30,201 nucleotides of DNA from a virus, in the IMG/VR virus record IMGVR_UViG_3300028739_000021, positions 1 to 30,201 of that record; one strand, given 5' to 3'. Shown here piece by piece: positions 2,153-27,186 of this stretch. Under the pieces are notes generated by a model. It did not search any database. It saw only the letters and a program-made list of their open reading frames with translations, and was not told where the DNA came from. The position numbers and the translations under genes were made by a program. How positions within the stretch are numbered: the stretch's first letter is position 1; each line of letters begins with the position of its first letter.

Positions 2153-3141
2153 TACCTATTCACCCACTTTTGATTGCACAAAATTTGACAAGTTGATAAT
2201 CCATCTCCGCTAACCGTATAAGTAAATAGATCATCACTTGTACCTGTTACCGTTGCAGAATAGGTTAAAGTACTTTTGCCACTAGCTGATATCGATATCG
2301 TACCGACTGTAGTTACCCCTTGTTTGACCGTAATAGTTGTTGCTGTACTTGGTGTACCAATGCAATAAAAATCAGTTGTAGCCATTGTTCCGTTCCTACA
2401 AAGCGGTATTGTGATTATTTGACCTGCCGTAGTAGGATTTGCTAATATAAATTGTTGTATCCATTGTTGGTTATTTAATGATTCTAGACTTTTAGCTGGT
2501 GCAGTTCTAGCATCTGATTTACCAGTAACTAGTTTTTGTAAACTAATAATGCCAGTTAAAAGAGTTGTTAGGTTTCCGCTATATGACGAAAGTAACGTTG
2601 CATCGGTTAAAGTCCTATTGCCAATTGCCAAGTCAGTCGCAGAATTATTAGCAATTGTATCTGCCAATGTTGCATGATTTACAATTCCATCATCATTAGT
2701 GTCGTAAACTGTTTTTAACATATCTCCTATTCCTGTACCGTCTGCACCTTTTGCAACACCTGCATCGATAGTGGATGAATCGCTAAATGTTAATATTAAA
2801 TGACCAGATCCATCGATGTTAGCACCTGTAATACTAACACCATTGGTTCCATTTGCCCCTTTAACAAGTCCAACATCAATAATAGTACTATCCGTTAAGG
2901 TAATCAATAAATGACCACTGAGGTCAATTGAAGCACTAACAATGCCAATTCCGTTATCACCATTAGAGCCATTTAATCCCGCAAAGTAAGTAAGTCCATT
3001 CCACGGAGTAACTCCATTTCCTATTTTCATTTTAATAGGTGTAGTATCTAAAGTGAACGCTAATTCCCTTTGTACTAATATAGGGTTAACGGATTGCCAA
3101 TTTGATTCTATATCACCACGCATCTGAATTATATCAGCCAT
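2152..3141 (-). CDS. Receptor-binding tail protein with Mtd_N-like N-terminal module and tandem 35-residue repeats
   Basis: A 329-residue protein. Residues 1-55 form a small module (RGDIESNWQSVNPIL... LDTTPIKMKIGNGVTPWNGL) like the N-terminus of Mtd and other podovirus fibres, and clearly related to the N-terminus of the neighbouring tailspike. A G/N-rich collagen-like linker (GLNGSNGDNG) follows. Two tandem repeats of about 35 residues (about 64-98 and 101-135) share an I(D)xSGHLxxTxxDSxxIDxGxxKGAxG pattern. The remainder holds a linker and a C-terminal beta-rich domain (about 240-329). The start ATG 3141 has a strong AAAGGAGG. Its role is most likely host-receptor recognition, attached to the virion through the N-terminal module. 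Confidence 0.8.
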   Translation of the reverse strand: MADIIQMRGDIESNWQSVNPILVQRELAFTLDTTPIKMKIGNGVTPWNGLTYFAGLNGSNGDNGIGIVSASIDLSGHLLITLTDSTIIDVGLVKGANGTNGVSITGANIDGSGHLILTFSDSSTIDAGVAKGADGTGIGDMLKTVYDTNDDGIVNHATLADTIANNSATDLAIGNRTLTDATLLSSYSGNLTTLLTGIISLQKLVTGKSDARTAPAKSLESLNNQQWIQQFILANPTTAGQIITIPLCRNGTMATTDFYCIGTPSTATTITVKQGVTTVGTISISASGKSTLTYSATVTGTSDDLFTYTVSGDGLSTCQILCNQKWVNR

Positions 3142-3153
3142 AATAAACCTCCT

Positions 3154-4785
3154 TTAAATTTCTACTTTACATGAAAATTGAACATCACCAGCAACTGATA
3201 AGAAATATACTCCGAATTTTATTGTTATATTTGTTGCATCTACTGCTAATATTTGATTAGGTATTACATCAAACATTCCGCTATTAGTTCTAGCGGTAAC
3301 AGTGCATTTCCAGATAGATGGAGTAGAAACGCATCCATGGGAAATAGTACCTGACTTTTGACCATCGCTGGAAACAGCTACATTTCCAACGGCATATCCA
3401 TCTGTTTTTAATCCTGTGTTATTTGACCATTTAAATTTATTCAAACGATCTGTTCCGGTAACTGACAGAGTTCCTACTAATTTGTTGTTTGATATAACGA
3501 AAGGTCCACCACTTGCTCCGTCAGTTAAAGCTAAACAAATATTACTGTTAATATGCTTACCATTTGTTATTGATACGTTTTTAGTTTGATTATACAAACA
3601 ATCGCAGTTTGTTATATTGGTAAAACTGTTATTATCTTCTGTTACGTTATCAACCCAACTACCTAAATTTATTCCGTATCCACTGTACCCTATCTTATTA
3701 TTAGAAATAACTATGTCGTTTATCGCAGTTGGCGTTGACCCTGCATAGATACCTACGCCTGTACTTCCACCAGTTGCAGCAGCTATATAATTACCATTGA
3801 TTACAGCTTGCTGAACACCAGTTATTCCACCATTTAAATAAATACAAGAACTTCCGCATTGATCTAACATATTATTAGAAATATTAATAAATAATACATC
3901 TTGAACATTAACTTGGTACGATCCAGTGGTTATTAAAGTGCTATCTAATAACCATATTCCTTCTGCTCTTGCACCTACAACAGAAGAAGCAACCTTTACA
4001 CCTTGTCCGATTCCTCCCATATATGTACGTCTTACACCAGAATTTATTAATATTCCAGCTGTTGTTCTGCGTACGTGTACGCAATACGCACTAGCATTAG
4101 TATTTGTCATATAGCAATCTTCTATAAATGTATTTGAAGAATTTATTTCTATTATATCAGAAGAATTACTTGTTAAGTTTTCAAAATAACATTCAACAAC
4201 TTTATGCCCTAATCCATTTTGGAAATTCATAATTTTACCAGAAGTTCCACCATGTTTTAATGCAATTCCAACAAAACTAGCAAAGTAATTTGCAGTAACA
4301 TTAAACATATCACCTGCATTAGTTTTGTATATCATTGTTGATTGTGACCATGATTGCCCACCGACAAGCGTAGTGCTGTTTACAGAGATATTCAACGTAG
4401 ATGTTACCCTATATATACCATCTGGGAAATATATTGCACCTCCTGCATTTAATGCTGCTTGAATAGCACTTGTATCGTCTGCTATATTGTCACCAATTGC
4501 ACCATAATTCTTAACACTATTAATTTGACTATTCCACCTTGTCTTTTCAAAATCAGTTACAAACCTGTTATTTAAATCCTGCGATATAATGCTTGGTGGA
4601 TGGGTTAATGGGTGAATATATCCTTCATAATATCCCATATCATTCCATCTAGTAATTCCATTGCCTATTTTTTGTTTCCAAGGAACAGTATCTGTTACAT
4701 ATCCGATTTGTCCATCAGCTAGAATAGGATTAGCACTAGCCCATTCCGCTTCTATGTCTCTCCTTTGTTGCATTATATTACCCAT
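3154..4785 (-). CDS. Tailspike with Mtd_N-like attachment module and pectate-lyase-like beta-helix
   Basis: A 543-residue protein when started at ATG 4785. That start has GGAGGGGGAG just upstream, whereas an in-frame ATG at 4803 has no such site. Residues 1-55 (RRDIEAEWASANPIL... WKQKIGNGITRWNDM) are the same attachment module as in the next gene. From about residue 90 comes the classic beta-helix opening (VKNYGAIGDNIADDTSAIQAA... GGAIYFPDGIYRV), typical of Pectate_lyase_3 tailspikes. Repeated N-rich rungs follow (ISNNML, INGNYI, ISNNKIG, ITNGKHI). Such spikes usually bind or cleave surface polysaccharide; the catalytic residues cannot be assigned here. The start overlaps the upstream adaptor gene by 8 nt. 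Confidence 0.88.
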   Translation of the reverse strand: MGNIMQQRRDIEAEWASANPILADGQIGYVTDTVPWKQKIGNGITRWNDMGYYEGYIHPLTHPPSIISQDLNNRFVTDFEKTRWNSQINSVKNYGAIGDNIADDTSAIQAALNAGGAIYFPDGIYRVTSTLNISVNSTTLVGGQSWSQSTMIYKTNAGDMFNVTANYFASFVGIALKHGGTSGKIMNFQNGLGHKVVECYFENLTSNSSDIIEINSSNTFIEDCYMTNTNASAYCVHVRRTTAGILINSGVRRTYMGGIGQGVKVASSVVGARAEGIWLLDSTLITTGSYQVNVQDVLFINISNNMLDQCGSSCIYLNGGITGVQQAVINGNYIAAATGGSTGVGIYAGSTPTAINDIVISNNKIGYSGYGINLGSWVDNVTEDNNSFTNITNCDCLYNQTKNVSITNGKHINSNICLALTDGASGGPFVISNNKLVGTLSVTGTDRLNKFKWSNNTGLKTDGYAVGNVAVSSDGQKSGTISHGCVSTPSIWKCTVTARTNSGMFDVIPNQILAVDATNITIKFGVYFLSVAGDVQFSCKVEI

Positions 4786-5353
4786 TGGCTCCCCCTCCAT
4801 CATACTTTTGCTTGTCTAAATAAACGCTTCTAGAATTTCCACCATCAATAGATTTACTATCAATAGTACCAAACTTAATAGTATTTTCTAGTGCTGTTCC
4901 GTCTTCATTCCACCCTAGTACATAACCTGCTACTGGATTTGGTAGCACTTTACTTACTGAATCTTCGGAAGTAACCGAGAATTTTAATGTCCTGCTTAAT
5001 TCATCATGTAATTGTTGGTCAATAATAGTTGACTTATCCAATGATCCTTCAACTGTTTTTGCAAAGTACGCCCCTTGATTTGGTAGTGTAACCTCTTGCG
5101 TAATTGGTACTTGTCTAAAAATAGTTATTTTTGTAGTTGAAGCAATAGCTGATCCAGTTATTGGATATATAACATATCCACTTGATACGTTTACAGAGTA
5201 ATTAGATGTTAATAACGTGTCAATTCCTGTTTCTATATCTGTTAAAATAATTTGCAGGTCGCTAGATTTGAATATTTTAAATGTAAATGGGAATTGTTTG
5301 GTTAATGAGTTTCCTATATATGTTATTTTATTGGAACTATTTGTAACTGTCAT
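4778..5353 (-). CDS. T7 gp17-type tail-fibre N-terminal adaptor protein
   Basis: A 191-residue protein consisting almost wholly of the T7 tail-fibre N-terminal domain: YIGNSLTKQFPFTFKIFKSSDLQIILTD... followed by TKITIFRQVPITQEVTLPNQGAYFAKTVEGSLDKSTIIDQQL and HDELSRTLKF. In T7 this domain joins the fibre to the tail nozzle. Here it is a separate short protein, so it probably acts as the adaptor on which the spike and fibre (downstream genes with their own modules) are mounted. The ribosome binding site is AAGGAGG before ATG 5353. The gene is the first after the inserted rightward cassette and may need its own promoter or readthrough. Confidence 0.88.
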   Translation of the reverse strand: MTVTNSSNKITYIGNSLTKQFPFTFKIFKSSDLQIILTDIETGIDTLLTSNYSVNVSSGYVIYPITGSAIASTTKITIFRQVPITQEVTLPNQGAYFAKTVEGSLDKSTIIDQQLHDELSRTLKFSVTSEDSVSKVLPNPVAGYVLGWNEDGTALENTIKFGTIDSKSIDGGNSRSVYLDKQKYDGGGANG

Positions 5354-5386
5354 GTATATTCCTCCTTGTTTATTTATAATTATACA

Positions 5387-5406
5387 GTATAATCAATGAA
5401 TTATAC
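5387..5406. promoter_or_regulatory. Inverted repeat in the divergent intergenic region
   Basis: GTATAAT - CAATGA - ATTATAC is a perfect 7-bp inverted repeat with a 6-nt loop, between the leftward tail-adaptor gene and the rightward regulatory cassette. Each arm contains a -10-like TATAAT on one strand, so it may be an operator over a leftward tail-gene promoter, or simply A/T-rich sequence. No convincing -35 was found for the leftward direction. Confidence 0.35.
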
Positions 5407-5418
5407 ATGTAAATTTAT

Positions 5419-5447
5419 TTGACAATACGTACCGAGTACGATATAAT
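5419..5447 (+). promoter_or_regulatory. Perfect consensus promoter of the rightward RHH-Rha cassette
   Basis: TTGACA (5419-5424) and TATAAT (5442-5447) are separated by exactly 17 nt. Transcription would begin near 5454, right against the GAGAGGTGAT ribosome binding site (5455-5464) of the RHH gene, so the leader is almost absent. Such a strong unassisted promoter implies tight repression during growth or in a lysogen. Confidence 0.85.
5428..5440. promoter_or_regulatory. Candidate operator inside the promoter spacer
   Basis: CGTAC-CGA-GTACG, a perfect 5-bp inverted repeat, lies wholly between -35 and -10 of the cassette promoter. A protein bound here would block RNA polymerase. The first gene of the cassette encodes a ribbon-helix-helix protein, the type of repressor (Arc, Mnt, MetJ) that binds short palindromes, so autorepression is the obvious inference. 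Confidence 0.6.
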
Positions 5448-5469
5448 AACGAATGAGAGGTGATAATAA

Positions 5470-5613
5470 ATGCAAACAACAGACAGGATGGAAATAAGAT
5501 TACCAAAAGAACTAAAAAAAGAATTTAAAAAATGGTGTGACGAAACCGTTACAACTCCAAGCGATGAAATTAGACGGTATATTGCTAGATTAATTAAGAA
5601 AGAAGGTAAATAA
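5470..5613 (+). CDS. Arc-like ribbon-helix-helix repressor
   Basis: A 47-residue protein. DRMEIRLPKELKKEFKKWCD gives the RHH beta strand (MEIRLP), the first helix and the start of the turn. TTPSDEIRRYIARLIKKEG gives the second helix, with a serine near the helix start as in many RHH proteins. Length and layout match Arc (53 residues). Two such chains would form the DNA-binding dimer. It is the first gene after the consensus promoter, with a palindrome in the promoter spacer, and lies 1 nt before the Rha gene. Likely role: autorepressor of this cassette. Family assignment is from pattern only. Confidence 0.8.
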   Translation: MQTTDRMEIRLPKELKKEFKKWCDETVTTPSDEIRRYIARLIKKEGK

Positions 5614-5614
5614 T

Positions 5615-6241
5615 ATGAATGAATTATTAACAATAGGAAATAATAACAAAGCGGTAACTAGCAGTAGGAAAATTGCTAAAAATTTTGGTAAAGAGCATAA
5701 GCACATAATGGAATCAATAAGGGTATTAGAAACTCAAATTAGTACGGTCGAATTTTCGACCCTATTTGAAACAAGGAGTTACGTAGCTTCAAACGGAAAA
5801 GTAAACCCAGAATATATTATAAACAGAGACGGATTTACATTGCTTGCAATGGGTTTCACTGGTAAAAATGCTACCGAATGGAAGATGAAGTATATCAAAG
5901 CGTTTAATAGTATGGAAAAGAAATTAACAGTTATTTATGAAAATGAAGTTAATAGTAAAATTAAAGAATTAAATACCACATTAGACGAAGTAAAACAATA
6001 TTACAGGTTTCCACATTCGGCAAAGATCAACTTTAACAAGCGTATAAAATCAAAGCTCGGCGAAGAATGTACAAAATCGGAAGTAGAAGACGTTAAAGAA
6101 TATGTATTTACTTTATTGGCAATTGACACTTGGGAAGATTTGCCGTTAGACAAGCGAACTAATGTGATTGATTTAATTGATAGAAGATGTAATATTATTG
6201 TAAATACTCGTAAAAACTTATTTAATTGGGATAAAATGTAG
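5615..6241 (+). CDS. Rha-family phage regulatory protein with antirepressor-like C-terminus
   Basis: A 208-residue protein. Residues 12-105 fit the Rha (pRha) domain: VTSSRKIAKNFGKEHKHIMESIR, a middle strand ending in YIINRDGFTLLAMGF, then GKNATEWKMKYIKAFNSME. The C-terminal half has a helical linker (NEVNSKIKELNTTLDEVKQY) and a segment KINFNKRIKSKLG... YVFTLLAIDTWEDLP resembling the ORF6C-type domain of phage antirepressors. Rha proteins are known from temperate phages, where they affect lysogenic or lytic control. It is co-transcribed with the RHH repressor and is probably the main effector of the cassette. It is placed among late tail genes, on the opposite strand. Confidence 0.85.
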   Translation: MNELLTIGNNNKAVTSSRKIAKNFGKEHKHIMESIRVLETQISTVEFSTLFETRSYVASNGKVNPEYIINRDGFTLLAMGFTGKNATEWKMKYIKAFNSMEKKLTVIYENEVNSKIKELNTTLDEVKQYYRFPHSAKINFNKRIKSKLGEECTKSEVEDVKEYVFTLLAIDTWEDLPLDKRTNVIDLIDRRCNIIVNTRKNLFNWDKM

Positions 6242-6275
6242 TATAGTTTAAATAAAAAAAGGGGGGTGATTTTAG

Positions 6276-6425
6276 GTGAGTTGTTTAGTAGGATTGCTAT
6301 GCAGTATAATAACAGTATTAATAATGCCATGGGGAAAGGTTGGCCCTTTATTTGGAGCGATAATGGCAACAGCGGTATTTTATATAGCTACTATATGGTG
6401 TAGTATTGAAATGGATGAAAATTAG
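6276..6425 (+). CDS. 49-residue double-spanning membrane protein
   Basis: It starts at GTG 6276 with a very strong ribosome binding site (GGGGGGTGAT, 6261-6270) and ends in TAG within the terminator stem. Two hydrophobic segments, about residues 3-19 (CLVGLLCSIITVLIMPW) and 24-43 (PLFGAIMATAVFYIATIWCS), are joined by a short GKVG turn, giving a helical hairpin with a negative tail (EMDEN). No family was recognised. As the last gene of a repressor/Rha cassette it could be a superinfection-exclusion protein, comparable in position class to the membrane protein SieA of the P22 immI region, or a small holin. Both are guesses from topology and context. Confidence 0.65.
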   Translation: MSCLVGLLCSIITVLIMPWGKVGPLFGAIMATAVFYIATIWCSIEMDEN

Positions 6426-6449
6426 AGAGCGAATTAACGCTCTCTTTTT
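6424..6449. terminator. Shared bidirectional terminator between converging genes
   Basis: AGAGAGCG - AATTAA - CGCTCTCT followed by TTTTT. The stop codons of both converging genes lie in or next to the hairpin (TAG 6423-6425, TAA 6448-6450). It should end the rightward cassette. Leftward, it may attenuate transcription from the ejection genes into the region opposite the cassette, although the T-run on that strand is weak. Confidence 0.8.
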
Positions 6450-9400
6450 ATTTGCCTAATGCTTTTAAAATTATAGCATTATGTTTTATTTGTAATTCAT
6501 CAATTTTAGATCTCTTAGTATCAGCATCTAGTTTTGTATCTGCTAAAACTAATTTAACCTTCTTGTAATTATCTTGTAGTTTTTCATTTGCCGTTCTATA
6601 TTTTCTTAATTCCCCTGCAACTACTCCTTTCTTACCAGTTTCATCGTGTTCCTGTTCTAATGTTTTCATTTTGTCATAAAATTGTTCTGTACTTTGTGAT
6701 AGTTTACCTGCATTTTTACTAAATAATGTTTTAATTACTGGTTGTTCTGTAAATTGTTTTGTAGGTAATTCATTTTTAGTACCAGATATTTCATTAATCA
6801 TTTTATCAGCACCTAATACCATAAACCCTGCAAGACCGCCACCTATATTGGAAATTGCATTATCAATTAACATTGGAGATTTATTTGTTTTATCTCCTAT
6901 TAATTTAGCTGTTTCGGATGTGTAAGAGTTAAATTGCTTGCTTGGTGTTGTATTTTTCAATGATTGCGGTACAATTTGTTTCTCTTTGAATACAGAGTAG
7001 CCACTAACCCATTCTCCAACCGTTAAGGCTGTAGTAGGAATTAAGTTAGGAACAAAACTACCACCAGTATTTTGCAAAAACTTTTGTATGCTTCTAGGAT
7101 TAACATTATACATGTGTCTAATTGCTTCTTCGGTAGTATTGGCAAACGTATTAAGTCCTAGTGGCTTTGGTATTCTTAATAATTTATCGCCAGTTCTAAT
7201 AATCCAAAAAGTATCTTTTTCATAATCAGGAAGTTCTTGAATATCTTTGTCGTTTAATCCTAGTAAAGTAATAACGACAGTTGGCAATACCAAGGCCATA
7301 GTTATTTTTTTACTAACTCCTTTAGGGTCTTTGTAAAATTCGCGGGCCATTTTATCAGTACCTTGGATTGCAGCATTGAAGAACGGTATCATTTGATTAA
7401 TGACTTGACCTTCTGATCCATGACGTGAAAAGTTAAGTGTAATTTCTTGCGCAGCTAATGCAGCTTCTTCGATTGATTTACCTGCTTTTTTTGCTTTCAT
7501 GTATTCGCCTAGTCTTGTGCCTGTCTCTGACATGTCGGTTAACCATTGTAATCCTCCTAGTAATGATCTAAACGCTTCTTTAGGTAATTTTGATGGTTCT
7601 ATAATTGCTGTTTTTCCCATAGTTTTAATAGATTCAATTGGATTTTCAAATGACTTACCTTTCATAGCATCTTGTATTTTTGTATTCATAGCTTGTCTAT
7701 CGGAGTTTAGGTATGACGACATTATTGCACCGCTTGATTTGTACTCATTGTACATTTTTTCATTACCAAACATTGCAAATACACCTCGTACAGTATCAAC
7801 AACGGGAACAAATCCATGTTTTGAATATACATATGCTTCTAATGTATCTTTAATCGGATTCTTAATAAAGAACTCTGGACTTAAAATTGCCCCTGTACGC
7901 AACCATTTTGCTTGATATGACATTAGCTTTACCATTGCATTACTACTTGATTCACTCACTGACATAATTGCTCTGTAGTATTCTGGTTCTGTGGCGTATG
8001 CCTGTTTTTTACCACCTGTCATTACTGTAAATATGCTATTTTTAGCATCTGCATCGCCTGGTACTTTTTCAACAAAACGTCCTGCTCCGTTAACGTCTGA
8101 TAATTTAACAAACGCTTGGGCTACCCTATTCCTTTCAATAACATTTAACGTCGAATATGTGTCGATTATAGCTGATTCAAGGGGACTAATAACCGATCTA
8201 GCTGATCCGTATTCAGTTAGCTTTTGTTGCTTATCTGAAATGTTACCAAATCCTTCTCCTTTTCCCTTGCCTTTTACTTTTGACACTGTGTCCTCGAAAT
8301 CTCTAGACATATGTGCATAGTTTTGATTATTTTTTTTCATTTCTGCATATTCTGTTGCACTGGTTAATCCTTCTGCAACTCTCATTCTCATAATGTTATC
8401 ATTGTAATTATAAAAGTCTTGTGCAATATCTTCAAATTCCTTAGGTGAATCTTTTAAAACAATTGCAGCATCTTCCTTACTCATTGAACCTACATATTTT
8501 TCTTTAGTTTTTTGTATTTCTGTTTGGCGTTTTGCAACTAAATAAGTGTCAAATGCTTCATTCCAATTTTTAAAGTTTCCTTCTTTTAGGAATGTTTGAT
8601 ATTTTTTGTCTGTTACTTCACTACTGATTCTATCTATAATTGATCTAAAAGTTACATCGTGAACCAATGCACCACCAAAATGAACGTTTAACAATTCAAT
8701 AGCCATTACAGGATTTAATTCATTTACTATAATATCAGCTTTAGCCATTGCGGAATTGTTTGCCAATCTTGCTAATTTTTCTGGATTATCTTTTGTTCCT
8801 AATTTAGTACCAGTTGCTTTTTCAAACGCTTTTACAAATCTAGTTAATCCAAACTTATCATCTACCATTTTTTCGTAAAACTTAACTCCGACTTCCTCTG
8901 CACGTTTTAAAATTGTATTTTCGTGTTCATAGCCAAATGATAATCCACTACGAGCCCTTGCAATAGATGGTTGTGCATACCATGCTCGAATCTTATTACC
9001 AATGTTTTCTACCGACTTAAATAGTTTTTTATCAGCGGATAACTTAGCAACAAATTCTGGGCCATAACTAGGGAAATTATTTAATGCTTCTTGCTTATTG
9101 ATTAGGTATTGCCTAGTAAACTCTGCAACTCCTTCTGCTCTGCGCTGTTCTGGTGTATATGAGTCGTATTCTTTTGCTCCTGACCACATTTTATCAGCGG
9201 TTCCTATTAATTCAGCATCGTGACCAGTGATTTTTAGTTTTGAATCTACATGATGACCTATTTCGTGGGACATTGTGTCAAAGTCACCATAGTTTCTTGT
9301 TCTTGCAACTCCTGCTTCTGTTTTATATAATCCCTCATAGGTTTTAACGCCTAATCTTCCTGTTCTTGCAGGAACTAAAGCATTAATGTCTTTCATTATT

Positions 9401-11433
9401 TCAGTTCTTGTTACTGGTTTTTCATAAGTTGTTTCTGCAGGAATTACAGTTGATTTTCCAAGTGATCCTTGTTCTCCTTCTTTTAACTTTGCAATAATAG
9501 CAGTGGTTTCAGTTGGATATTTTTCAACTAATGCAGGATATTCTTTTAACACTTCTTGTGGCACAAGTTTTTCATCTTTAATAGCTTGTTCTATAATTTG
9601 TTCATGTGTTTTTAATTGTTCTGTTGTTAATTCTGCTACTGGTTTTTCTTTGGTAATATTATCATATTGATCTTTTGTCATTTCCCATGGTTGCTTAGTT
9701 GCTAAGTCTGTTAAATCTTTAGTAGCAGATTCTGCAGAAATCTTATCTTGTTCAAGTTGATACTTTTCTCTTGCTGTTAATTCTGTTTTTTGTACATCTG
9801 AAACAACTTTACTTTCTGGTGATCTTTTAATACTTTCCATAATTTTATTTACATAATTTTGCGTTTCTTTATATGGAGGAATGCCATTGTATTTTAATAC
9901 TGCATTAGGTCCTGCATTATAAGCTGCCAATGCCTTTTCTGTATCTCCACCAAATGTTTCTAATTGCTCTTTTAAATATTTGGCTCCACCCATAACGTTA
10001 CCGCGAACATCGTGAGGATTAACACCTAATCCCTCTGCAGTATCTGGCATTAATTGCATTAAACCAATTGCGCCAGTTGGAGAAACCGCATCTGATTTAA
10101 AACTGCTTTCTTGTTTCATTACTGCTGCGATTAGTTCTGGTGATACTCCATATTTTTGAGATGCTTCTAAAATTATATCTTTATAACTACTAGCTTCTGT
10201 CAATGCAGGGTGTTCATATGCTGTTGCTTTAGGTAACTCACCAGTAAAATCAGCTAAATGTAAATGTAATCCACTTCCTGTGTCATGATATAGCACTTCT
10301 CCCCATCCTGCATCAATAGCCTTTTGTTTAATCAATGCCTGTTGTTCTGGTGTTATAATCCCAACACCTAAGTCTATTGCCCTGCCGTCTAAATGATGTG
10401 ACGTAGGAGATCCTCCTGATTCTGCATTGACTTCTGGTGTTCTTTTGCCAGAGGTAATAACTGGTTCTATTCCAAATTCGCTTCTTAATACCTCTCCAAA
10501 CGTATTGGCAGCTACTTTTGTATTATTTTCAACCCCTACATAATCAGATGTTTCAGGACTTATTTCTAATTGTTTTGCTTGCTGTGTAGTTGTTTCTCTC
10601 TTTACAGGAGTTACTTGCTGTTCTGATTGTTTGTTTGCTCTATACGACGCTAACTCATCTTGCAACGTTACACCTTGTTCATTTACATGCGGAACAGTCT
10701 CAATAATTGGTGTACCTTCTGGTGTAACACCGGCTTGTCGCGATTCTCTTATTTTAGTTATACCTTCAATTGCACCTTTGCCCATTAATAGCGGTGGAAT
10801 TATTGACATTAATCCGCTACCTGTTGTGGATATTGGTCTATTATAAAACTGTTGTCGTAAATCTGGTTGATTATACCAATCAATTGCACCTCCGACAGTG
10901 AAATCGCGTATTACTTTTTGAACACCATTCATTTTTCCATCTGCAATTTGTTTTTGGGCATTGACTTCCTCTTGTGAAAAACCTTCTTTTGGAGTTGCAT
11001 TTCCATATTCATCAACATTAGCCATTGTTCTTAATTTTGCTTGCTCTACATTTCCTTCTTGATATATGTTTTTAATATCAGTTGCCATAAACGGTAATGA
11101 TGCTATACCTGCTGTCTTACTAACCAAAGATAATGGCAATGCCACTGGCTTAACTGTTTGATCCATAAAGTCAGATGTTGCCTTACCTGCATATTCTACA
11201 TTTGCTTTTTGTTGTTCTGGTGTTGTTTGCGCAGAAGTACCTGGACCACCATATAATTGATCTTGTGCTGTTTGCACTTCTTTAGCACCTTGAATTGCAC
11301 CAATACCCCAGTTTTTAACCGTATCCCTAACATCTTCAAATGCTCTAGTAAAAAGACCTTTTTCTTCTGGTGGAGGTGTAGGTTTTGGTCTATTTGCTCT
11401 ATATTCCGCTAAATCATCTGATATGTTACCCAC
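6448..11433 (-). CDS. Giant gp16-like ejection protein with M15 peptidase, lytic transglycosylase and HExxH motifs
   Basis: A 1661-residue protein (GTG start at 11433, GAAGGAAG upstream). Visible parts in order: an N-terminal region with a repeated DELASYRAN-type motif (residues 6-12 and about 255); an M15 D,D-peptidase-like domain, with SHHLDGRAIDLG (His347, Asp354) and GLHLHL (His390, His392) as zinc-ligand motifs; a soluble lytic transglycosylase domain (about 418-535) with catalytic Glu442 in KQESSF, GLMQLMP and AAYNAGP; a coiled linker; and a zincin-like HEIGHH (723-728) followed by AEGVAEF. A long helical C-terminal part contains EITLNFSRHGS... PFFNAAIQG, typical of polyvalent phage proteins, and a hydrophobic stretch at about 1376-1395. 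By synteny it corresponds to T7 gp16, which opens the cell wall and forms the DNA channel during ejection. Confidence 0.9.
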   Translation of the reverse strand: MGNISDDLAEYRANRPKPTPPPEEKGLFTRAFEDVRDTVKNWGIGAIQGAKEVQTAQDQLYGGPGTSAQTTPEQQKANVEYAGKATSDFMDQTVKPVALPLSLVSKTAGIASLPFMATDIKNIYQEGNVEQAKLRTMANVDEYGNATPKEGFSQEEVNAQKQIADGKMNGVQKVIRDFTVGGAIDWYNQPDLRQQFYNRPISTTGSGLMSIIPPLLMGKGAIEGITKIRESRQAGVTPEGTPIIETVPHVNEQGVTLQDELASYRANKQSEQQVTPVKRETTTQQAKQLEISPETSDYVGVENNTKVAANTFGEVLRSEFGIEPVITSGKRTPEVNAESGGSPTSHHLDGRAIDLGVGIITPEQQALIKQKAIDAGWGEVLYHDTGSGLHLHLADFTGELPKATAYEHPALTEASSYKDIILEASQKYGVSPELIAAVMKQESSFKSDAVSPTGAIGLMQLMPDTAEGLGVNPHDVRGNVMGGAKYLKEQLETFGGDTEKALAAYNAGPNAVLKYNGIPPYKETQNYVNKIMESIKRSPESKVVSDVQKTELTAREKYQLEQDKISAESATKDLTDLATKQPWEMTKDQYDNITKEKPVAELTTEQLKTHEQIIEQAIKDEKLVPQEVLKEYPALVEKYPTETTAIIAKLKEGEQGSLGKSTVIPAETTYEKPVTRTEIMKDINALVPARTGRLGVKTYEGLYKTEAGVARTRNYGDFDTMSHEIGHHVDSKLKITGHDAELIGTADKMWSGAKEYDSYTPEQRRAEGVAEFTRQYLINKQEALNNFPSYGPEFVAKLSADKKLFKSVENIGNKIRAWYAQPSIARARSGLSFGYEHENTILKRAEEVGVKFYEKMVDDKFGLTRFVKAFEKATGTKLGTKDNPEKLARLANNSAMAKADIIVNELNPVMAIELLNVHFGGALVHDVTFRSIIDRISSEVTDKKYQTFLKEGNFKNWNEAFDTYLVAKRQTEIQKTKEKYVGSMSKEDAAIVLKDSPKEFEDIAQDFYNYNDNIMRMRVAEGLTSATEYAEMKKNNQNYAHMSRDFEDTVSKVKGKGKGEGFGNISDKQQKLTEYGSARSVISPLESAIIDTYSTLNVIERNRVAQAFVKLSDVNGAGRFVEKVPGDADAKNSIFTVMTGGKKQAYATEPEYYRAIMSVSESSSNAMVKLMSYQAKWLRTGAILSPEFFIKNPIKDTLEAYVYSKHGFVPVVDTVRGVFAMFGNEKMYNEYKSSGAIMSSYLNSDRQAMNTKIQDAMKGKSFENPIESIKTMGKTAIIEPSKLPKEAFRSLLGGLQWLTDMSETGTRLGEYMKAKKAGKSIEEAALAAQEITLNFSRHGSEGQVINQMIPFFNAAIQGTDKMAREFYKDPKGVSKKITMALVLPTVVITLLGLNDKDIQELPDYEKDTFWIIRTGDKLLRIPKPLGLNTFANTTEEAIRHMYNVNPRSIQKFLQNTGGSFVPNLIPTTALTVGEWVSGYSVFKEKQIVPQSLKNTTPSKQFNSYTSETAKLIGDKTNKSPMLIDNAISNIGGGLAGFMVLGADKMINEISGTKNELPTKQFTEQPVIKTLFSKNAGKLSQSTEQFYDKMKTLEQEHDETGKKGVVAGELRKYRTANEKLQDNYKKVKLVLADTKLDADTKRSKIDELQIKHNAIILKALGK

Positions 11434-14202: not shown

Positions 14203-16518
14203 TTATCCATCAACTGTTACATGTGTAATCAGTGCAAGTAATGTAATTGGTAGCGGGTCACTCATCCTGATGCACACCCTTCCTTCTCTATTTGATGGAG
14301 CATTAATTGTTATATCCTTATCTCCACTAAATACTCTTACTGGTTCATCCCAATTTTCTTTTTCTCTGACCTTTAGTTCATACATCTTTTTAAAATCAAT
14401 TCCAATGAATGCATTACGTGAATCTTCCATTCTTAATGTCGCTTGCATTATACGCTTATTTCTTGTTTGTAATGTCCCGTCTTTTAGGGGGAAGTCAACA
14501 TTTAATGTTTGAATATCAGAAGTATACGGCAATCCAATATGTACTAAAGTAGCCATAAAATCTAATGTAATTATACCACCATTTACTACTAATTGCTTAT
14601 GCACATTTCCATCAGCTAAAATAGATACTGTTTTTCCTTCAAGATGTGATAATCCTGTTATTGTATTGGTAGCAACTCCACTATAAGTAATACCACAATC
14701 AACAAAATAAGATTCTTCTGATTTTATATATGAATATGTTTCTCCATCATCATCTACTGAATAATAAGTAGTTGGTTCACGCTTTGCAAGTTGCTCCACA
14801 TATCTTTTAGCAACTCCATCAATTGTTCTATTTACAATAAACCATACTTCGTCACGATCTACTCCTGCAATGCTTCCTACACCTTCAAATTTGCCGTCTG
14901 TTACATGTTTAGACCATCCCCATACATCTTGCTCCTTTAAGTAAGTAAACCCTAGCAATGTTCCATCATCACAAACGCACCATATAATTCCATTTGGTTC
15001 TTGTGCGTAGGCCCAATCAATTACCTTTCTGCCTTTAAATAGGTGTTCTGCAAGTATTGTTAATTCATTACCAGTATATGAGTCAGAATTGTAATCGTAA
15101 CCAATGTCTCTTATTGATGATCCTTTTGCTTCTGAATAAACCATCTTATTACCTACGGTTAATGGCGTTAAGTTTGATGCACCGTAATAACCTTGTTGTA
15201 CTGCTGACTGCGAACTAGGTGTAATTGCAGCATCACCGCCACTTCCTATTTTCCAGTTACCGCCAGTGGTGAATGCAATTATCTTATCTAATGATTTTAG
15301 GTTCTGAATAATATTAACCTGTTCGGCAACTAATGGTGTTGTAATGCTATCAGAATCAACCATGGGATACGATATACCAAAGTTAGTATAATCACCACTT
15401 TGTGATCCCCATAACGTCTGTGGTTGATTTGCGGTGCCACCAAACCATAATCTATTCTGAAAAAATACCACCGCGCAAGGAAAACCATTTAATCCTGACC
15501 ATGCCCCTCTATAAAACAAATTAGTTGCAGAAGTAGAACCTAATTCTTTAAGTACTGTTGCTGTTGCGCTTGTACCGCTTGTTACTGCTGTTATTTTAGC
15601 TATGCCTTTACTTGTATATGGGTCAAAACTTAATGTAACGTTGCATGTTCCGCTTGTATATACTCCCATAAATGCCCTAATTAATATAATAGATTCATTT
15701 TCTGTTCCGCTTGCTATTGGATTATAGTCATCGACCGAACTATAAGTTCTTAATTTAGTCCATGTTGTGCCATTGTCTTCTGATTTTTGAACATATAAAG
15801 TTCCTTTCCATATTCCGTGAGTAATTAAATTCCATGTTCCTTGCCCTCTTACTGATCCAGTAGTTGTTGCAGAAGATAATGAAGCTGAAATAGACTGATC
15901 TTCAATATCTTGTTCTATTTTCATTAAAGATCCTATTTCTAATGAGTTAAATATTGAAGCTGTAGAGGTCAACGTCACTGTACCAGTTGTTGCGGATGGT
16001 GTTATTTTTGTTGTATCTACTAAATTAACATTTGCAAATGGTCCATCGTGGTAATTAAATGTTGTTAATGTCCAATTATCATCAGCAAAGCAAGATAAAA
16101 CCATTGGTGTATGATTAGGATGTACTAAATACAATACATCTGCAGATTGTGCAAATTTAATCATGGGTAATTCAGTATCTAAATATGGGCTGACTACTTC
16201 ATACGGCGTTCCCATTACCTTTATTTGCGATCCATTTGCATAGAATCTAATGTATAGATCACCAAATTCTAACATATATGTTTTTGTTGAAGACCTTTGA
16301 AATGGTATTAGTCTGCTTTTCTTTGCACTTTTTTTAGATTCTGCTATAAATTTAGTGCCTGCTCTATTTACTGCTGCGCCATGAGCCAATGCGTAAAAGT
16401 TTTTCATCGTTTTTAAACTACTTGCATACTTTGCTAAGTCTTGCCTTGCATCCATAATGGGGCTAACTTCTCCACCACTAAAACTATTTTGCATTACATG
16501 CATTGGATTAGTTGCCAT
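14203..16518 (-). CDS. Tail tubular protein B (nozzle, gp12-like)
   Basis: A 771-residue protein, near the T7 gp12 length (794). The N-terminus has the usual nozzle signature: NSFSGGEVSPIMDARQDLAKY, MKNFYALAHGAAVNRAGTKF, and RLIPFQRSSTKTYMLEFGDL followed by YIRFYANG. The middle has several beta-rich domains, and GAWSGLNGFPCAVVFFQNRLWFGG is another strongly conserved stretch of this family. The C-terminus ends with RVCIRMSDPLPITLLALITHVTVDG, typical of the family. It forms the distal tail tube to which fibres attach. The ribosome binding site AGGAGG is formed by the last codons of the tail tubular A gene, 4 nt upstream. Confidence 0.92.
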   Translation of the reverse strand: MATNPMHVMQNSFSGGEVSPIMDARQDLAKYASSLKTMKNFYALAHGAAVNRAGTKFIAESKKSAKKSRLIPFQRSSTKTYMLEFGDLYIRFYANGSQIKVMGTPYEVVSPYLDTELPMIKFAQSADVLYLVHPNHTPMVLSCFADDNWTLTTFNYHDGPFANVNLVDTTKITPSATTGTVTLTSTASIFNSLEIGSLMKIEQDIEDQSISASLSSATTTGSVRGQGTWNLITHGIWKGTLYVQKSEDNGTTWTKLRTYSSVDDYNPIASGTENESIILIRAFMGVYTSGTCNVTLSFDPYTSKGIAKITAVTSGTSATATVLKELGSTSATNLFYRGAWSGLNGFPCAVVFFQNRLWFGGTANQPQTLWGSQSGDYTNFGISYPMVDSDSITTPLVAEQVNIIQNLKSLDKIIAFTTGGNWKIGSGGDAAITPSSQSAVQQGYYGASNLTPLTVGNKMVYSEAKGSSIRDIGYDYNSDSYTGNELTILAEHLFKGRKVIDWAYAQEPNGIIWCVCDDGTLLGFTYLKEQDVWGWSKHVTDGKFEGVGSIAGVDRDEVWFIVNRTIDGVAKRYVEQLAKREPTTYYSVDDDGETYSYIKSEESYFVDCGITYSGVATNTITGLSHLEGKTVSILADGNVHKQLVVNGGIITLDFMATLVHIGLPYTSDIQTLNVDFPLKDGTLQTRNKRIMQATLRMEDSRNAFIGIDFKKMYELKVREKENWDEPVRVFSGDKDITINAPSNREGRVCIRMSDPLPITLLALITHVTVDG

Positions 16519-26544: not shown

Positions 26545-26573
26545 TTGACATTAAAATTCAAACATGTTATAAT
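26545..26573 (+). promoter_or_regulatory. Perfect consensus promoter of the rightward mini-operon
   Basis: TTGACA (26545-26550), a 17-nt spacer and TATAAT (26568-26573). The start would be near 26580, giving a leader of about 50 nt before ATG 26631. It points away from the late operon and towards the early operon end. Confidence 0.85.
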
Positions 26574-26630
26574 AAAGACAAGTTAAAGACGCGGACAACA
26601 AAGGGTGTCGGTCACAAGGGGTTAATTAAA

Positions 26631-26873
26631 ATGAGAATAACACTAACTAATAACTTTCACAATACATCAGTAGTTTTTAATGCTAAAGAAGTTGCTTGTA
26701 GCGGTAGTAAAATATTAAAACTTTCATCTTCGCAAGTTAAAAAATCACAAAAAACTTTATGTGGTTGTAACGGATGTAAATGCAGTAACGAGTTAGGAGT
26801 TAATGGACATCAAGAATATGAAAACATAGAAATTAGTAAAGTTGGTGAAGCAACAATGACTAGTAAATTATGA
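26631..26873 (+). CDS. Small cysteine-containing phage protein
   Basis: An 80-residue protein started at ATG 26631 (AAGGGG upstream); an upstream in-frame ATG overlaps the promoter and is unlikely. The sequence ITLTNNFHNTSVVFNAKEV, then SSSQVKKSQKTLCGCNGCKC, resembles small proteins often found in phages of low-GC hosts, of unknown function. The CGCNGCKC cluster could bind a metal. It overlaps the next gene by ATGA, so both are translated together. As the first gene behind a strong promoter at the early/late border it may be a regulator or an early host-takeover protein; that is inference. Confidence 0.7.
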   Translation: MRITLTNNFHNTSVVFNAKEVACSGSKILKLSSSQVKKSQKTLCGCNGCKCSNELGVNGHQEYENIEISKVGEATMTSKL

Positions 26874-27001
26874 GTAGTGGCGGAAAACGCACTGGCGCCG
26901 GCAGAAAACCAACCAACCGCAAGCCAATAACTCGCCAAGTAACCGAATGCGAAAAACTAGCAATAGACAATTTACTAAAACAATTAAGAGCCACCAAATA
27001 G
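26870..27001 (+). CDS. 43-residue basic, possibly RHH-type protein
   Basis: Its ATG overlaps the TGA of the preceding gene, and its stop lies in the terminator loop. MSSGGKRTGAGRKPTNRKPI is a Gly/Arg/Lys-rich arm. TRQVTECEKLAIDNLLKQLR is a strand-helix pattern like the first half of a ribbon-helix-helix domain. Such GAGRKP-type proteins are common small phage regulators or stubs. With 43 residues a complete RHH fold would be barely possible. The codons near the start are unusually GC-rich for this window (GGCGGAAAACGCACTGGCGCC). Confidence 0.7.
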   Translation: MSSGGKRTGAGRKPTNRKPITRQVTECEKLAIDNLLKQLRATK

Positions 27002-27013
27002 GTGGTTCTTTTT
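26987..27013 (+). terminator. Terminator of the rightward mini-operon
   Basis: AGAGCCACC - AAATA - GGTGGTTCT (one G-T pair) followed by TTTTT. The stop codon of the 43-residue protein begins within the loop. Confidence 0.85.
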
Positions 27014-27054: not shown

Positions 27055-27186
27055 TTATTTATTTAGCTTACTTCTTAACTCTTTTATCTGCTTGCTTAAC
27101 TTTCTATTCCTTGCATACAGCATTTCATTTTCTTTTTCAAGTTCATTAATATGTTTTTGTTGCGTACCTTGTACTGTTATTTTCAC
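27055..27186 (-). CDS. Small coiled-coil protein, last early gene
   Basis: A 43-residue protein with a GTG start at 27186, preceded by GGAGGAATAAAC; the ribosome binding site lies within the end of the preceding gene. After a short N-terminal strand (MKITVQGTQQ), the rest is one charged helix with leucine/isoleucine spacing (INELEKENEMLYARNRKLSK, then QIKELRSKL), i.e. a likely coiled coil. Similar short coiled-coil proteins are frequent in phage early regions and have no known role. It ends 8 nt before the operon terminator. Confidence 0.7.
   Translation of the reverse strand: MKITVQGTQQKHINELEKENEMLYARNRKLSKQIKELRSKLNK

Follow-up and report, generated by a model that had tools for sequence, protein, structure and literature searches.

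An Arc-like repressor gene, a Rha-family gene and a candidate operator within the spacer of their promoter in an epsilon15-like phage

The stretch of viral DNA that was analysed, hereafter the window, is 30,201 nucleotides long and is from an epsilon15-like podovirus with an AT-rich host; its portal protein and the epsilon15 one are 36% identical. Between its internal virion protein (IVP) gene and its tail-fibre/tailspike genes, and on the opposite strand to both, is a small cassette. The features involved, and a second small unit that will serve for comparison, are as follows.

3154-4803 and 4778-5353, opposite strand to cassette: tail-fibre/tailspike genes
5419-5447, + strand: sigma-70-type promoter, TTGACA (5419-5424), 17-bp spacer, TATAAT (5442-5447), 12 of 12 consensus matches
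5428-5440, no strand: proposed operator CGTAC-CGA-GTACG, inner half-sites CGTA (5428-5431) and TACG (5437-5440), centred on promoter position 16
5457-5463, + strand: Shine-Dalgarno-like GAGGTGA, with 6 nt between it and the ATG, as read from the sequence
5470-5613, + strand: gene for a 47-aa Arc-like ribbon-helix-helix (RHH) protein, by Pfam, PHROG, alignment to P22 Arc and predicted helices
5615-6241, + strand: gene for a 208-aa Rha-family protein (putative anti-repressor), starting 1 nt after the RHH gene stop
6276-6425, + strand: 49-aa hydrophobic ORF, the last of the cassette
6424-6445, no strand: bidirectional terminator-like hairpin, at which the cassette and the opposing IVP gene both end
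6448-11433, opposite strand to cassette: gene for a 1661-aa IVP of the ejection type
26545-27010, + strand, against all other genes: second moron, with two small ORFs (26631-26873 and 26870-27001) and a terminator (26986-27010)

The initial annotation had singled out 5419-5447 as a full-consensus promoter, and direct reading of its letters, TTGACAATACGTACCGAGTACGATATAAT, finds both boxes to be exactly that. It is the sole site with 12 of 12 matches among the 20 promoter-like sites in a scan of 3000-9000, and its 17-bp spacer, 5425-5441, is ATACGTACCGAGTACGA. Transcription is predicted to start at about 5453-5455, 6-8 nt past the end of the -10 box at 5447, i.e., approximately at the ribosome-binding site, and as the ATG of the RHH gene is at 5470, with 22 nt between it and the -10 box, the leader would be some 15-17 nt, in keeping with the earlier contention that there is almost none.

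Is the first gene of the cassette really one for an RHH protein? Its product matches Pfam RHH_5 (7.6e-4), and also RHH_1, in the right register, both below the curated cut-off, and PHROG 582, Arc-like repressor (6.4e-4). With P22 Arc, its sequence taken from NC_002371, it aligns without gaps over residues 1 to 47 with 12 identities, at a BLOSUM62 score of 52 when the maximum from 3000 shuffles was 40; it is far less similar to Mnt. In the AlphaFold2 model, which is of moderate confidence, residues 13-25 and 32-46 form helices, and the pattern of an Arc-like RHH repressor, a short protein with a beta-strand and two helices, is present. A Foldseek search with the monomer, a weak model, found no match, and phmmer searching of PDB sequences found no RHH match. 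The full-length ungapped match to Arc, together with the sub-threshold Pfam RHH and the Arc-like PHROG matches, supports what had been proposed for the adjacent gene. The DNA-contacting residues of the Arc beta-sheet are Q9, N11 and R13; aligned with them are R6, E8 and R10, the predicted DNA-contact residues of the new protein.

The product of the second gene belongs to the Phage_pRha family (PF09669; 2.3e-27, 95.8 bits vs a gathering score of 29.9), and it matches PHROG 373, anti-repressor (6.3e-33), and TIGR02681 (5.4e-28). It has clear similarity to P22 Rha, the domain match having z = 15, but none to P22 Ant (z 0.4), and so it is not an anti-repressor homologous to the latter. Though its domain is that of phi80 and P22 Rha, the P22 rha gene, unlike the one here, is elsewhere in its genome, after the lysis genes, and has no Arc partner. 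Rha of phi80 and P22 is reported to be detrimental to lytic growth in the absence of IHF (PMC4936722). The Rha of the cassette may act as an anti-repressor. For the 49-aa hydrophobic ORF there was no family match among Pfam and NCBIfam profiles. What is found is thus an arc-type gene followed by a gene of anti-repressor type, behind one promoter.

The palindrome earlier reported from the promoter spacer is there: the 13 bp of CGTAC-CGA-GTACG at 5428-5440 have exact 5-bp arms which stop at five pairs, with no symmetry in the central CGA or in the flanks (A..A, T..T). CGTACNNNGTACG has exactly one occurrence in the window and, with 2 mismatches allowed, is no commoner than in shuffles. However, arms of at least 5 with a loop of 0-7 are present in 3.4% of all 17-mers of the window, and a 5-3-5 dyad in 0.46%. 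Because of these rates the dyad taken alone is weak evidence; it is modest and short, its chance rate is not negligible, and it is suggestive, not compelling. A second GTACNNNGTAC in the window, at 27163, was considered as an operator and rejected, as it is inside coding sequence.

Relevant to its interpretation is the position it occupies. The initial annotation had pointed to the Arc operator of P22 as being between the -35 and -10 boxes of Pant, and the P22 record bears this out: Pant, TTGACATGATAGAAGCACTCTACTATATT, i.e., TTGACA-N17-TATATT in NC_002371, extends over 14793-14821, and the annotated Arc operator, 14798-14818, is within it. With the first T of TTGACA as position 1, the Arc half-sites TAGA/TCTA are at promoter positions 10-13 and 19-22, and those of the window, CGTA/TACG, are at the identical positions, so that operator and dyad share a centre at position 16. 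From the base frequencies of the window (0.27 to the fourth power), ~0.5% of random spacers would be expected to have four symmetric pairs at just the P22 offsets. In Arc-Ant loci of enterobacterial phages whose Arc proteins are divergent, no dyad was recognised in the same register, and no common register emerged beyond P22, so the coincidence rests on two sequences. It is the context, an Arc-like product, the P22 register, the Rha gene and the genomic place, that makes the reading of the dyad as an operator convincing.

How would such a unit work? From a strong consensus promoter, the Arc-like repressor and, directly behind it, the putative anti-repressor of the Rha family would be expressed. 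Dimers of the RHH protein would insert their N-terminal beta-sheet, with R6, E8 and R10 as predicted contacts, into the half-sites CGTA and TACG in the spacer, and the bound protein would block RNA polymerase, keeping expression of the two genes low, at a level set by the repressor itself. We infer that the RHH protein binds the dyad and represses the cassette. Autorepression by the RHH protein had been suggested at the outset for this promoter, and autorepression in this way of a cassette that resembles the 'ant moron' is quite probable: identity of register with P22, the full-length Arc match and the Rha/anti-repressor nature of the next gene all point to repression.

Do related loci inform on the spacer? 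The locus is present, practically identical, in three other contigs, with 0, 0 and 1 differences over 4.2-6.6 kb. A divergent RHH homologue adjoining Rha was not found in viral and genome contigs, the close homologues being those near-identical contigs only, and as the collections have only such copies of the locus, conservation is uninformative on the spacer. The next-best relatives of the RHH protein elsewhere, in L021, L125 and L126, are at 40-47%, and in the first two no Rha was seen beside them. Among 80 Rha loci an RHH-like ORF is just upstream of Rha in only four (L047, L050, L052 and L089), to which L034 from the phage collection is to be added; most of the 80 have XRE/HTH or other genes upstream. 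Judged by these ORFs, the pairing of RHH and Rha is recurrent in other phages, though a minority arrangement. The promoter spacer of L050 has a dyad, TTTTGTG-TT-CACTAAA, with a centre that differs from that of the window dyad, and in L034, L047, L052 and L089 there is no clear spacer dyad.

Could the dyad instead be the operator of another repressor, whether from the host, a prophage or a phage gene outside the window, with the RHH protein acting elsewhere, e.g., at the ATTATAC palindromes (5379-5406) by the start of the divergent tail gene? This is rather unlikely, while being the alternative that merits most attention. Long palindromes, e.g., GTGTACAATGTACAC and AGCGTACATTGTACGCT, have their centre at position 16 in TTGACA-N17-TATAAT-like promoters of unrelated phage contigs (L029:1424-1452, L030:4754-4782, L031:4090-4118, L032:4893-4921, L151:4951-4979 and L152:1147-1175). 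They have GTAC half-sites, and in none of the six contigs was an RHH gene recognised next to the position-16 palindrome. L032 has two promoters of this sort, which look like a regulon. All this suggests that position 16 is a workable operator site which is not exclusive to RHH proteins, and that the binder cannot be told from position alone. For comparison, the GTACNNNGTAC dyad when displaced by 2 bp was found in 4 contigs of one lineage, and in the observed register in 4 unrelated contigs, numbers too few to prove enrichment.

Upstream of the RHH promoter, ATTATAC-A-GTATAAT (5379-5393) is a perfect 7-1-7 palindrome, stronger than the spacer dyad. There is a further ATTATAC at 5400-5406, and AATTATACA repeats with 21-bp spacing, all in the gap (5378-5414) that separates the RHH promoter from the divergent tail gene. 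These ATTATAC elements may belong to a divergent promoter or form a second operator, and the 5379-5393 palindrome might be the real operator instead of the spacer dyad. Yet they are AT-rich and resemble -10 boxes of the divergent strand, and approximate matches to them are no commoner than chance; furthermore, the DNA-binding gene nearest to the spacer dyad, and directly downstream of it, is Arc-like, and P22 Arc acts at the same register.

That the dyad arose by chance in a constitutive moron promoter, leaving the cassette unregulated at this point, is less likely again. Its attraction comes from the 0.5-3.4% rate at which such a spacer dyad is expected and from the second moron of the same phage, which has a perfect TTGACA-N17-TATAAT at 26545-26573 and no obvious operator; it has to contend with the exact register of the P22 Arc operator and with an Arc homologue being the first gene. 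The spacer of that second promoter is without a comparable dyad, and no RHH gene was recognised in the unit, which makes it a small internal control for the operator reading; its two ORFs have no PHROG match. In ~44 kb of the phage (the window plus contig L136) nearly all genes are on one strand, the exceptions being the two morons.

The notion that RHH and Rha form a unit of toxin-antitoxin type, the RHH protein being a RelB/VapB-type antitoxin that regulates its own expression and binds Rha, can be put aside as very improbable, since against weak NCBIfam matches of the RHH protein to RelB_DinJ and VapB, far below cut-off, stand its length of 47 aa with no C-terminal toxin-binding tail, a partner, Rha, with no toxin fold, an Arc match that is full-length and a PADLOC search that found nothing. 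RelB too is an RHH protein that represses the operon encoding it (PMC2812701), but relO covers -10 to +17 and not the spacer, and RelB has a toxin partner.

Returning to autorepression through the spacer dyad, the place of the cassette, between the IVP gene and the tail-fibre/tailspike genes, has its counterpart in P22, where immI is between gene 16 and gene 9, and this late-region place, between ejection-protein and tailspike genes, is variable among relatives. A sister phage (L010/G006) with an IVP 70% identical lacks the RHH-Rha pair, and its 40-kb record yielded no Rha. At the corresponding intergenic place, L010:12413-12720, it has a lone small hydrophobic ORF behind TTGATA-N17-TATTAT, where the window has its 49-aa hydrophobic ORF (6276-6425). 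As the sister has only that ORF there, and no Rha, the cassette behaves as a moron. The L136 contig extends the phage 13.7 kb further left, with replication, recombination and lysis genes, and in its 32.5-kb record neither a tyrosine integrase nor an HTH_3 repressor was found. The sister (G006) has, in L137:8181-10438, a BRO-N-like anti-repressor as well as a divergent gene pair resembling cI/cro, although its 40 kb yielded no tyrosine integrase.

P22 immI, with arc-ant, Pant and Oarc, is alike in having an Arc-like repressor gene first and an anti-repressor-type gene second, in its TTGACA-N17-TATAwT promoter with half-sites at positions 10-13 and 19-22, and in being between an ejection-protein gene and a tailspike gene. 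The differences are several. The second gene of the window is of the Rha family and not similar to Ant. Neither an mnt gene nor an Mnt operator is present, the divergent neighbour being a tail gene. There is no gap for the sar RNA, with 1 nt between the genes in place of 68, the half-site is CGTA rather than TAGA, and the cassette points against the late genes. The 'ant moron' of P22-like phages, of which there are ten types in sixteen phages that differ in their mnt, arc and ant content, some being without parts, is similarly an independently expressed, variable cassette in the same late-region place (PMC2629481), though in the window the host genome is that of an epsilon15-like podovirus and the effector is Rha. 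The cassette is then probably an arc-ant-like moron of the ant-moron/immI kind, with Rha replacing Ant, without mnt and with no room for sar.

The arrangement itself is already known from P22, and the cassette is a further example of it. Somewhat favoured is the more specific proposal of a minimal arc-rha switch in which the recognition residues (R6, E8, R10) and the half-site (CGTA for TAGA) have both been altered while the register was kept and a Rha-type effector was employed. If true, it would provide a natural second data point for the Arc beta-sheet recognition code, and a small, easily tested repressor-operator pair. Arc-mode repression, with the RHH protein clamped between its own -35 and -10, would extend to a low-GC, epsilon15-like lineage, in the same genomic place as in P22-like phages and with a different effector. 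It would also give the Rha family, which is poorly understood, a link to an RHH protein dedicated to its control, and suggest that Rha, like Ant, needs to be tightly controlled.
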